A stretch of 50,968 bases of DNA, taken from assembly GCA_902567785.1 (NCBI GenBank), contig CACFOR010000006.1:1-50968 (forward strand), written 5' to 3'. A program made the translations under genes and the position numbers. The notes under the pieces are model-generated. The model saw only the letters and a program-made list of their open reading frames with translations, was not told the origin of the DNA and did not search any database. Positions 5,400 through 9,465 of this stretch are shown here, in pieces (position 1 is the stretch's first letter; every line of letters begins with the position of its first letter). The stretch is from an uncultured Pelagibacteraceae bacterium. GTDB taxonomy: Bacteria > Pseudomonadota > Alphaproteobacteria > Pelagibacterales > Pelagibacteraceae.

Positions 5400-6523
5400 A
5401 AAAAATATTCGTATTAACAGGAGAACCATCGGGGGACAAATTAGCTTCAAAAGTTGTTTCTAAACTAAAAATATCCAGATCTGATATAGAGTATTTATCA
5501 GTTGGAGGAGAATACTTAAAGTCTCTAGGAATTAAATCAATTTATGATTTAAACAAAGTTACATATCTGGGATTTACTAAGGTTTTAATGAATTTATTTA
5601 AAATTAAAAAAAATATAAACGATACTGCGAGAAAAATTATTGAATTTAATCCAGATATTTTATTTTCAGTCGATAGTCCAGATTTTACTTTAAGAGTTGC
5701 AAAAAAAGTTAAAAAAATAAACTCCAATATTAAGATAATACATTTTGTTTCACCAAAAATATATGTCTGGAGAAAAAACAGAATTAAAAAATTTAAATAT
5801 TTCTTGGATCATATTTTGTTATTATTTCCTTTCGAAAAAAAATTTTATGAAGAAGAGAAAATAAAATGCACATTTACAGGCCATCCACTTCTTGAGGATA
5901 ATGGAAAAAGCAAAGTTGATTTGAATCAATTTATTAAAAAAGATAAAAAGATAATTTCAATTTACCCAGGAAGCAGATTATCCGAAATAAATATTTTAAT
6001 GCCAATATTGTCTAAGTTTGTTAAATTAATGAATGATAAATACAAGGATTTATTATTTATCTTTCATTCAACGTCTGAGTTTAACCAAATTGTTCAAAAA
6101 GAAATCTTGAAAGAAGGTTTTAAAAATTGTGAAACTATATGTGATGAAAAAATTAAATCCCAATTATTAAAACAATCTATTTTTGCAGTCGCCAAGTCAG
6201 GAACAATCTCATTAGAAATATCTAACTTCAAAGTTCCTTCTATTATTATTTATAAAATGAATATTATTAATTTTTTTATTGTTAAATTATTAGCCAAAGT
6301 AAAATTTGCAAATATTATAAATATTGCAGCCAATGAAGAGATTATTCCCGAATTATTACAATCTAAATGTAATGCAAAAAATATATTTAATACTGTTGTT
6401 GAACTTTTAAATGATGAAAAAATCTTAAAAGAGCAAATTAACAAATCCCAAAAAATAATAAATAACTTTAAAACTAATAAATCTTCAGAAATAGCTACTT
6501 CAGTTTTAATTAATAGCCTTTAA
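5396..6523 (+). CDS. lpxB: Lipid-A-disaccharide synthase LpxB
   Basis: LpxB is a GT-B fold glycosyltransferase (family GT19) that joins lipid X to UDP-diacylglucosamine. Seen: the N-terminal LTGEPSGDKLASKV motif (residues about 6-19), SVDSPDFTLR, HFVSPKIYVWRKNR, the FTGHPLLED motif, and the donor-site segment IYPGSRLSEI. The C-terminal region holds AKSGTISLE, normal for LpxB. Length (375) is typical. It is the last gene of the plus-strand block and its 3' end overlaps the end of the convergent gltX by 18 bases. Confidence 0.95.
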   Translation: MKKIFVLTGEPSGDKLASKVVSKLKISRSDIEYLSVGGEYLKSLGIKSIYDLNKVTYLGFTKVLMNLFKIKKNINDTARKIIEFNPDILFSVDSPDFTLRVAKKVKKINSNIKIIHFVSPKIYVWRKNRIKKFKYFLDHILLLFPFEKKFYEEEKIKCTFTGHPLLEDNGKSKVDLNQFIKKDKKIISIYPGSRLSEINILMPILSKFVKLMNDKYKDLLFIFHSTSEFNQIVQKEILKEGFKNCETICDEKIKSQLLKQSIFAVAKSGTISLEISNFKVPSIIIYKMNIINFFIVKLLAKVKFANIINIAANEEIIPELLQSKCNAKNIFNTVVELLNDEKILKEQINKSQKIINNFKTNKSSEIATSVLINSL

Positions 6524-7900
6524 TCTTTTTGTGATTTCATTTTTATCAAGTGATAAAATAATATTGTATATTCCTGGACCAAACTTAGATCCCGTTAAAG
6601 CAATTCTTAAGGGTTGACCAACGCCTTTAAAGTTTGTTTTATGCTTAGCAATCAATGTGTTCATCATTTCTTCAAGATTTTTTTTATTAATTTCAGAGTT
6701 TTTTTCAAACTCAGCAAGGAAGTCCTTTATAATATTTTTAGAAGATACATCTAGAAGTTTAAAGTCTTCACTAGAAATCTGAATTTTTTCCTGGAGAATG
6801 TATTGGGAGTTTTGATAAATATCCTCAAGAGTTTTGGCTTTATTTTTTAGAAAATTCATTGATTTTATAAGAGAATTTTCTTTAGAAGGATCAATCTTTT
6901 TTTTAAATTTTTCAGAATAAATTTTAAAAAATTTAAATAATTTTTTTTCTTCAATATGTTTAATATAGTATTCATTAATTGATAGTATCCTAGACATATC
7001 TAATTTAGATGGAGATTTCCCAATACCTTTTAAATCAAAAAGTTTAATACTTTCATCAAGTGTGAAAATTTCTTTATCTTTATGAGCCCAACCAAGACGT
7101 AAAAGATAATTTCTTAATGCATCAGACAAGATGCCTATTTTAATAAAATCATCAATGGTCGAGGCCTTATCTCTTTTTGAAAGTTTAGAACCTTCTTCGC
7201 TATGAATAAGAGGTATATGGGCAAACTGGGGAATATCCCATTTCATTGCTTCATAAATTTGTTTTTGTTTAAATGTATTTATTTTATGATCATCTCCTCT
7301 TATGACATGAGTAATTTTCATTATATGATCATCAACAACAGCAGATAATTGATAAGTTGGTGATCCATCTTTTCTTAAAATAACAAAATCTTCAATAATT
7401 GAGTTTGTAATATTAATCTCGCCTTGAACCAGGTCATTGACAGTTGAGTTACCAGGAATCTTACTTTTAAATCTAATTACAGGTTCAACATTACTTGGAA
7501 TTTCCAAATCTTTTGAATCTCTCCATTTTCTATTATATATATAAGGTATTCCTTGTTTTTTACATTTTTCCTTTTGTTTTTTAATTTCTTCTTCAGAGCA
7601 ATAGCATTTATATGCAAAACCTTTTTTTAAAAGCTCATCAACAATTTCTTTATGCTTTTTAATGTTTTTTGATTGGACGTATTCTTTGTCATCATGATTT
7701 ATTCCAATCCAATCAAGTGAATCTATAATTTGTTTTTTAAATTCTTCTTTTGATCTTTCTTTATCAGTATCTTCTATTCTTAAATAAAATTTACCTTTAT
7801 TATTTTTTGAAAAAAGCCAATTAAAAAGTGCAGTTCTAACACCACCTATATGAAGTGGCCCAGTAGGAGAGGGAGCAAATCTTGTTGCTACTAAACTCAT
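6506..7900 (-). CDS. gltX: Glutamyl-tRNA synthetase (class I)
   Basis: GltX charges tRNA with glutamate (and in many alphaproteobacteria, which lack GlnRS, may also misacylate tRNA-Gln). The 464-residue protein carries the class I signature FAPSPTGPLHIGG at residues 8-20 (HIGH motif as HIGG) and the second motif KLSKR near residue 240. A cysteine cluster (CYCSEEEI...EKC) resembles the zinc site of the family. It is the last gene of the minus-strand run, 19 bases after lexA. In many alphaproteobacteria gltA follows gltX towards lpxB; it is absent here. Confidence 0.95.
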   Translation of the reverse strand: MSLVATRFAPSPTGPLHIGGVRTALFNWLFSKNNKGKFYLRIEDTDKERSKEEFKKQIIDSLDWIGINHDDKEYVQSKNIKKHKEIVDELLKKGFAYKCYCSEEEIKKQKEKCKKQGIPYIYNRKWRDSKDLEIPSNVEPVIRFKSKIPGNSTVNDLVQGEINITNSIIEDFVILRKDGSPTYQLSAVVDDHIMKITHVIRGDDHKINTFKQKQIYEAMKWDIPQFAHIPLIHSEEGSKLSKRDKASTIDDFIKIGILSDALRNYLLRLGWAHKDKEIFTLDESIKLFDLKGIGKSPSKLDMSRILSINEYYIKHIEEKKLFKFFKIYSEKFKKKIDPSKENSLIKSMNFLKNKAKTLEDIYQNSQYILQEKIQISSEDFKLLDVSSKNIIKDFLAEFEKNSEINKKNLEEMMNTLIAKHKTNFKGVGQPLRIALTGSKFGPGIYNIILSLDKNEITKRLKAIN

Positions 7901-7919
7901 GAATTATTATTAGACTATT

Positions 7920-8600
7920 TTATTGGAAGTTTCTATATAAAGATACAAGTACGCCCTGAACTTTTACTCTGTCAGGACCAAAAATCTTAGTTTCATATCT
8001 TTTGTTTGCACTTTCAAGAGCTATGACTTTACCTTTTTTTCTTATTCTTTTTAACATAGCTTCATGGTCATCAATTAAAGCAACAACAATTTGACCATTA
8101 TCAGCAGAATTAGTTTTTTTAACAATTACAGTATCTCCATCATTTATCCCAGCTTCAATCATAGAATCTCCCGAAACCTTTAATCCAAAATGATCTCCTC
8201 CCTTGCTAAGTTCTTCTGGAATTGCAACTCTACTTACTTCATTTTGAATAGCTTCAATAGGAGTACCAGCAGCTATTTTACCTAATACAGGAATTTCATG
8301 AACGCTTCTTTTGGTTTTTTCAGAATCTAGCCCCCCTTTTATTACACTAGGTGAAAAAGAGTTATATATATCATTTGCACTTGCTGTTTCTGGTAATTTT
8401 AAGACTTCCAATGCCCTAGCCTTGTGAGCTAATCTTTTTATAAATCCTCTTTCTTCTAAAGCAGAAATTAGTCTATGAATCCCAGATTTTGATTTGAGGT
8501 TTAAAGAATTTTTCATTTCTTCATAGGAAGGTGACACACCTGATGATCTGATTTTTTTATTTATAAATAAAAGTAGGTTTTTTTGTTTTTTAGTAAGCAT
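7920..8600 (-). CDS. lexA: LexA repressor, SOS regulator
   Basis: LexA represses SOS genes and cleaves itself when RecA is activated by DNA damage. Counting from the ATG at 8600 (226 residues), the winged-helix DNA-binding domain covers about 1-65. The self-cleavage bond is Ala111-Gly112 in [11 protein letters not shown], and the serine/lysine catalytic pair is Ser146 (VSGDSM) and Lys184 (EAMLKR), so all parts for autoproteolysis are present. An in-frame ATG at 8618 would add MYDICS, but it falls where transcription should begin given the promoter described below, and family proteins start MLT-KQ. A GTTC-N7-GTTC operator lies 24 bases upstream, so the gene is probably autorepressed. Confidence 0.94.
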
Positions 8601-8623
8601 AGAACAAATATCGTACATCTACT

Positions 8624-8652
8624 GTTCTACAAAAGTTCTCTTTTAATATCAA
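8624..8652 (-). promoter_or_regulatory. lexA promoter with alphaproteobacterial SOS box
   Basis: Two GTTC words at 8624-8627 and 8635-8638 are separated by exactly seven bases, the direct-repeat SOS box known from alphaproteobacteria (GTTC-N7-GTTC); on the lexA strand it reads GAAC-N7-GAAC. On that strand I also see a sigma70-like promoter: TTGATA at 8652-8647, a 17-base spacer, then TAGAAC at 8629-8624, so the operator covers the spacer and the -10 element. An imperfect half-pair (GAAC at 8602-8605, GTAC at 8613-8616, again seven bases apart) lies between the operator and the start codon. The site match is seen; repression is inferred. Confidence 0.8.
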
Positions 8653-8670: not shown

Positions 8671-9465
8671 TTATGGGGCTATTTTGATGATTTCTTCTAA
8701 CATATTAGATTTTTCCTCTAGATCCTTAAGGAGTGATTCACCAATAAGAAAGTTATTTATTTTTGTTTTATTGAATATTTCCTCTACATCTTTCGCATTT
8801 TTAATCCCACTCTCACAAACTATAGGTCCAGAATGATTATTTAATATTTTGTATAAATTATAAGTAGTATTAATGTCTGTTTTAAGAGTTTTAAGATTTC
8901 TATTATTAATTCCAACTATTGCATTTTTATAATTTAGAGCAAGTTTAGCTTCATCATCTGTATGAACCTCAACTATCGTGCTCATATTTAATTTATTAGC
9001 AATTTGATAAATTTCGTTAGCTACTTTGTCACTAACTATTGATAAAATAATCAAAATAGCATCAGCACCAAAACTTTTTGCAAGATATACTTGATAGGGA
9101 TCTATAAAAAAATCTTTGCATAAAACAGGTAATTTAACTTCTTTTTTAACATCTTCTATATGTTTCAGTTTTCCCAAAAAATACATTTCTTCTGTTAAAA
9201 TAGATAGACAAGAAGCTCCCGAATGAAGATATTGTTTTGCTATTGATTTTGGATCATAATTTTCAATAATAATTCCTGCTGATGGACTACTTTTTTTTAT
9301 TTCGGCAATTACAGATATTTTTTTTTCTAATAACTTTGATTTGAAATCAAGGTAATTATTGTATGAAGATATTTTTTTACTAAGATCTTTAATTGAAAAG
9401 GAATTTTTATATTTTTCTAAACTATCTTTTTTTGCATTAATTATTTTTTCTAGAGCATTTGTCAT
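8671..9465 (-). CDS. trpC: Indole-3-glycerol phosphate synthase TrpC
   Basis: TrpC closes the indole ring in tryptophan synthesis. The 264-residue TIM barrel shows the family motifs in order: IAEIKKSSPSAGII, LSILTEEMYFLG, LCKDFFIDPYQ, VGINNRNLKT and VCESGIK, with the expected Lys, Glu and Asn active-site residues. There is no fused TrpF domain. It starts inside the trpD stop (ATGA overlap of four bases). A 70-base gap follows before lexA, where moaC and moeA stand in many alphaproteobacteria. Confidence 0.96.
   Translation of the reverse strand: MTNALEKIINAKKDSLEKYKNSFSIKDLSKKISSYNNYLDFKSKLLEKKISVIAEIKKSSPSAGIIIENYDPKSIAKQYLHSGASCLSILTEEMYFLGKLKHIEDVKKEVKLPVLCKDFFIDPYQVYLAKSFGADAILIILSIVSDKVANEIYQIANKLNMSTIVEVHTDDEAKLALNYKNAIVGINNRNLKTLKTDINTTYNLYKILNNHSGPIVCESGIKNAKDVEEIFNKTKINNFLIGESLLKDLEEKSNMLEEIIKIAP

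Follow-up and report, generated by a model that had tools for sequence, protein, structure and literature searches.

The lexA gene of this SAR11 bacterium is preceded by two conserved LexA-type boxes, and we propose, with a probability of about 0.9, that they form the operator of an autoregulated promoter controlling lexA, probably gltX, and in parallel recA, umuDC and nrdA elsewhere. The boxes lie in a window of 50,968 nucleotides (the whole stretch of DNA analysed), which is contig C6 of a source assembly of 820 kb that is 63% complete. LexA is predicted to bind box 1, which overlaps the spacer and the -10 hexamer of the lexA promoter, and box 2, which covers the leader and the expected start of transcription; its presence on both boxes would block RNA polymerase. 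RecA filaments would trigger the self-cleavage of LexA at Ala111-Gly112, which would derepress lexA, probably with gltX as the next gene of a likely transcript. The genes recA, umuDC and nrdA, which carry the same kind of box upstream in relatives, would be derepressed alongside lexA.

Analysis of the minus strand placed the lexA promoter and box 1 within the 70-bp gap between trpC (8671–9465, same strand, upstream of lexA) and lexA. Box 1, a GTTC-N7-GTTC direct repeat at 8624–8638 (GTTCTACAAAAGTTC on the plus strand, GAACTTTTGTAGAAC as read on the lexA strand), overlaps the spacer and the -10 hexamer of a promoter of the form TTGATA-N17-TAGAAC, as the first-pass annotation had described and as the sequence confirms. 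The putative -35 hexamer TTGATA occupies 8647–8652 on the minus strand, with its first base at 8652, and the putative -10 hexamer TAGAAC occupies 8624–8629 on the same strand, with its last base at 8624. A GTTC-N7-GTTC direct repeat is thus present at the lexA promoter, as is characteristic of an alphaproteobacterial SOS box. Read on the lexA strand from 8652, the -10 hexamer is followed by six bases, the putative box 2 TGTACGATATTTGTTCT (8601–8617, minus strand), and then directly the start codon ATG at 8600. Box 2, which is of the recA type and is located in the expected 5' leader abutting the start codon, had been noted earlier as an imperfect second site; the site is indeed present, but it has the GTAC-N7-GTTC form seen at recA and is conserved rather than imperfect. 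When the 79 full-length rows are aligned with MAFFT, the three TTG columns of the -35 hexamer are invariant; in 44 of 80 rows, the TTG placed 14 nt ahead of GAAC is the last one. The lexA promoter is absent from the four promoter-like sites given by a stricter consensus scan of the region. With a matrix built from recA and umuD boxes only, box 2 is narrowly the top-scoring 17-mer of the window (12.1 versus 11.4 for the runner-up), and box 1 falls outside the top eight.

Counting of the exact motif left some room for the repeat being a chance match in AT-rich DNA. The window holds two exact copies of GTTC-N7-GTTC against 0.62 expected, a count that is uninformative because at least two copies occur in 13 of 100 shuffles, and eight of the ten exact matches in the genome fall within open frames (one of them, L004, in a frame of 86 amino acids). 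Scaling of the window rate to the 70-bp trpC-lexA gap gave a chance expectation of approximately 0.001 sites there, and the position of the box is less likely to arise by chance than the raw window count. Comparison of the lexA upstream regions of relatives then renders a chance match exceedingly improbable: GAAC-N7-GAAC and GTAC-N7-GTTC (lexA strand) are both intact in all 80 scorable rows, comprising 79 SAR11 relatives and the window. Of 532 relatives found, the best 80 were compared, L043 being unscorable as its operator is lost at its contig end. This conservation refutes a chance origin, and we regard it as the decisive evidence for a real lexA operator. The inner half-sites are 6 nt apart in 57 rows, 7 nt in 22 rows (the window included) and 5 nt in one row, a variation more in keeping with a pair of separate sites than with a single rigid array.

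With both half-sites kept in every scorable row, the second site is a box in its own right. Its position in the expected leader, abutting the ATG, together with the lack of a visible Shine-Dalgarno sequence there, could also reflect a constraint on the 5' leader or on the start of translation instead of LexA binding. This explanation is improbable, because the recA-type half-sites are retained in every row while the seven bases between them take six forms, and because the pair of boxes recurs, 6 nt apart, in the alphaproteobacterium L250, where it is located 105–126 nt before the lexA match and thus off the start codon. Box 2 is therefore best read as a LexA site, and its relation to the leader depends on the choice of start codon. 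The longest lexA frame opens at ATG 8618, inside box 2; of 80 rows, 59 have this ATG in frame and 21 lack it, and in seven rows GTTC and ATG are separated by two bases rather than one, with a shift of the frame. Given the 21 rows that lack ATG 8618, ATG 8600 is the better start, from which box 2 would fill the expected leader of lexA. Read from 8600, lexA has a short leader with no visible ribosome-binding site (8598–8618).

The lexA gene (7920–8600, minus strand), with its start chosen by comparison with relatives, encodes a protein of 226 amino acids from ATG 8600. In the 232-residue reading, the protein matches the curated model TIGR00498 over its full length with 177.5 bits (cut-off 110.95), and the Pfam domains LexA_DNA_bind and Peptidase_S24 are both present. 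Alignment to solved LexA chains revealed that Ala111-Gly112, Ser146 and Lys184 (226-residue numbering) are kept, which we take to be the cleavage bond and the catalytic dyad, respectively; the retention of an Ala-Gly cleavage site and a Ser/Lys dyad, claimed earlier, is thereby borne out. Among named records, the closest LexA relatives come from uncultured Pelagibacteraceae, the best being 95% identical, which places the source genome in SAR11.

GTTC-N7-GTTC is stated as the LexA motif for Alphaproteobacteria in an excerpt of PMC3323433 and for Caulobacter in an excerpt of PMC12700426. We compared the SAR11 operator with lexA loci across the class, taken from the 30 best-matching genomes among the 99 that gave a match (114 searched), with 29 loci in the box count. 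The half-sites, the spacing and the gene of the alphaproteobacterial operator are the same as in SAR11 lexA, and the orientation is the same in 25 of the 29 other alphaproteobacteria. SAR11 lexA differs in having two boxes in opposite directions, 5–7 nt apart, a second, sense box being seen in two of the 29 others (L250 and L233). Box 2 in turn has the same form as the alphaproteobacterial recA operator GAAC-N7-GTAC, but on lexA it is inverted and located at the start codon. Among the recA loci of the class, GAACAAA-N4-GTAC was found in 14 of 30, and any of the sought box forms in 23 of 30. Both box forms occur across the class, so neither is new; the SAR11 lexA operator looks conserved and ordinary in kind, and the surrounding regulon looks small and partly rewired. 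A search of the open-licence literature found no description of LexA boxes in SAR11.

Downstream of lexA, gltX (6506–7900, minus strand), encoding glutamate-tRNA ligase (TIGR00464, 488.9 bits), follows after 19 nt. The minus-strand order is trpE-trpG-trpD-trpC-lexA-gltX, in which lexA, gltX and trpC were assigned by NCBIfam and the other trp names were read from translations. All 80 relatives have gltX next after lexA, with a gap of 19–22 nt, and a trpC motif is located upstream of lexA in 76 of 80; three of the remaining four have less than 160 bp of upstream DNA, and the fourth, L015, has enough DNA and no motif. An excerpt of a Sargasso Sea survey also describes lexA as adjoining and following trpC (PMC2395257). 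Twenty regions were also fetched from other alphaproteobacteria, and 13 of them have gltX on the lexA strand, downstream of lexA (L304, one of the seven regions without that order, ends at a contig end), so the order is probably inherited. The distance between the lexA and gltX motifs in these 13 regions is 0.3–0.4 kb in two, 0.7 kb in one and 2.2–5.2 kb in nine, the lexA motif being unrecognised in L314. The gene between lexA and gltX in other alphaproteobacteria is presumably comEC, and this spacer was probably lost in SAR11 while the order was kept.

The short gap in all relatives makes a shared lexA-gltX transcript likely, and some induction of gltX is therefore expected. No terminator was found when the trpC-lexA gap was scanned on the trp strand, so that read-through from the trp genes may also feed gltX. 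The chances are about even that gltX is not meaningfully SOS-regulated, its place behind lexA being an inherited order and most of its expression coming from trp read-through or from a separate promoter within lexA. The same-strand order in 13 of the 20 other regions and the lack of a detected terminator speak for such independence, as do promoter-like sites at 8125–8097 and 7935–7906, although these are not above shuffles (4 in the region versus 5.4). In addition, a literature search by title or abstract start found no link between gltX and LexA, and gltX is missing from the main text of two SAR11 expression papers (PMC2864753 and PMC12753301). The 19–22 nt gap of all 80 relatives, on the other hand, favours a shared transcript and thus some induction of gltX. 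In the first-pass annotation, the lexA promoter separated lexA-gltX from the trp genes and, if SOS-regulated, would link a tRNA synthetase to DNA damage. A promoter does lie in the 70-bp gap and gltX does follow it, but the trp strand has no detected terminator at which the units would part, and the link of gltX to DNA damage, which derives from its position, is weak.

The same annotation had suggested a genome scan for GTTC-N7-GTTC as a check, which proved misleading: the exact motif is not enriched in the genome, with 10 matches versus 12 for the control, and the count was rejected as a test of the regulon. The two matches outside the open frames are located at lexA and nrdA. When one mismatch was allowed, the search was likewise swamped by chance, with 60 matches versus 71 for the control. 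The extended pattern TGTWC-N7-GTTCT has four exact matches in the genome, two at lexA, one within a frame and one approximately 108 bp upstream of nrdA. Profile searches found recA, umuD and uvrA absent from the 63%-complete assembly, so the boxes shown for this genome itself are those of lexA and nrdA, and the other genes were analysed in relatives.

Analysis of the recA upstream regions revealed TGTACAYATTTTGTTCT (also given as AGAACAAAATRTGTACA), which has the form of box 2, in 30 of 30 loci, the best-scoring 30 of 75 genomes with recA. A GTTC-N7-GTTC box is present upstream of umuD in 30 of 30 loci, the best 30 of 65 genomes with a match over the cut-off. Within the genus of the source genome, every region fetched has the box, 9 of 9 for recA and 10 of 10 for umuD (L151–L160). 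At recA (L091–L120), a GANTC sequence, which we take to be a CcrM methylation site, begins 10–12 nt past the box in 30 of 30 loci, the GANTC density there being 2.7 per kb. Across 79 genomes of the family, the pattern TGTWC-N4-TTT-GTTCT gave 194 matches versus 10 for a reversed-pattern control. Among the 150 matches listed, 60 belong to recA, 44 to umuD, 34 to lexA, 11 to mraZ and 1 to an unrelated frame, so that 149 lie within 800 bp of one of the four genes and one is intragenic. Because the pattern was derived from recA, umuD and lexA box 2, the matches at these genes are partly by construction, and only the specificity and the mraZ matches are independent. One match resembling lexA box 2 (G047:C2:772) was rejected, as it lies within an unrelated frame.

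None of the 30 uvrA loci of relatives analysed, drawn from 36 genomes over the cut-off, has a LexA box in the approximately 300 nt upstream that were covered (less in L401). The uvrA gene and a divergent ssb-like gene, named from its sequence, share this box-less upstream region (L374–L403). The core SOS regulon of alpha- and beta-Proteobacteria comprises, according to an excerpt of PMC3323433, lexA, recA, an inducible translesion polymerase, uvrA and imuA-imuB-dnaE2. SAR11 resembles this core regulon in that lexA, recA and the translesion polymerase genes umuDC carry boxes, and differs from it in that uvrA lacks a box in the 30 loci and nrdA has one.

The nrdA gene is preceded by GTTC-N7-GTTC in 44 of 44 loci from 12 genera, including the source genome, where the box is located on another contig (C7, 3721–3737; L010/L354). 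The loci (L354, L355–L372 and L404–L428, with the partial locus L373 dropped) come from 20 of 20 matching genomes of a genus search and 30 of 37 of a family search, the two sets overlapping. The full TGTTC-N7-GTTCT is present in 38 of the 44 loci, and TATAAT is located inside the box in 21; the source genome reads TGTAAT. It is unlikely that the box serves a regulator other than LexA. In favour of such a regulator, the seven inner bases are unlike those of the recA and umuD boxes, a matrix built from recA and umuD only ranks the box first in 35 loci and not in the other nine, and repeats resembling an NrdR box, as we presume from that motif, adjoin it. However, the outer bases match TGTTC-N7-GTTCT in 38 of 44 loci, and a matrix built from lexA, recA and umuD places the box first in all 44. 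The assignment of the nrdA box to LexA is thus preferred, and it sets SAR11 apart from E. coli, in which ribonucleotide reductase genes also rise under DNA stress. An excerpt of PMC2500167 describes the induction of E. coli nrdAB by replication-fork arrest as independent of LexA, whereas the putative SAR11 nrdA promoter carries a LexA-type box.

Published expression data are consistent with a common response of these genes. In an excerpt on Ca. P. ubique, a late iron-stress cluster is marked by lexA, recA and mucA (PMC2864753), and in an excerpt on infection by phage HTVC027P, recA, lexA, umuD, umuC, nrdAB and three excinuclease subunits rise (PMC12753301). These two sources describe iron limitation and phage infection as the stressors rather than an agent that damages DNA, and the rise of the excinuclease subunits is unexplained by a LexA box, as uvrA has none in the 30 loci. 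A retained SOS switch with the targets named above would explain the co-induction of lexA, recA and umuD/mucA under both stresses. LexA control of ribonucleotide reductase, if true, would bear on phage infection, where nrdAB also rose (PMC12753301). A functional SOS switch kept in a streamlined genome, as originally suggested, is supported by the conserved operator, by the recA, umuD and nrdA boxes of relatives and by the published co-induction, with the source genome itself contributing only the lexA and nrdA boxes; a working switch in this bacterium is very likely. SAR11 genomes are known for few regulators. The balance tips slightly towards a stripped and rewired SAR11 regulon, in which LexA would act family-wide on lexA(-gltX), recA, umuDC and, at the box of its putative promoter, nrdA, the last for dNTP supply, and excision repair, represented by uvrA and the ssb-like gene, would have left its control. 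In some lineages, LexA would have taken over a site ahead of mraZ-ftsZ and would tie division genes to damage without a dedicated division inhibitor.

Analysis of the mraZ region revealed a box between the RNase P RNA gene and mraZ in 23 of 23 loci of the genera g5, g7, g9 and g12 (L257, L259, L264, L266, L268–L273, L279, L282, L285–L290 and L299–L303). The box has the form GAAC-N7-GAAC in 21 of these loci and GTAC-N7-GAAC in two. A search of five loci with Rfam RF00010 identified the RNase P RNA gene in all of them, and ftsZ directly follows mraZ in the mapped loci. Neither of the two forms occurs upstream of mraZ in the 27 loci of other genera, the source genome included; one of them, L281, has GTTC-N7-GTAC in this region. 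The sample consists of 50 loci out of 65 genomes with a match, and nine loci without a recognised mraZ start, checked by match coordinates, have no box. In Corynebacterium, mraZ mRNA drops after ciprofloxacin, in a passage that gives no LexA site there (PMC5055667). Loci of other genera, including the source genome, have in the mraZ region the sequence TGTTC-N7-GATTC, which is half LexA-box-like and ends in GANTC. It is located 224–234 nt before mraZ in L277, L278, L283, L284, L292 and L293, and further copies are present in L254, L274, L275, L294 and L298.
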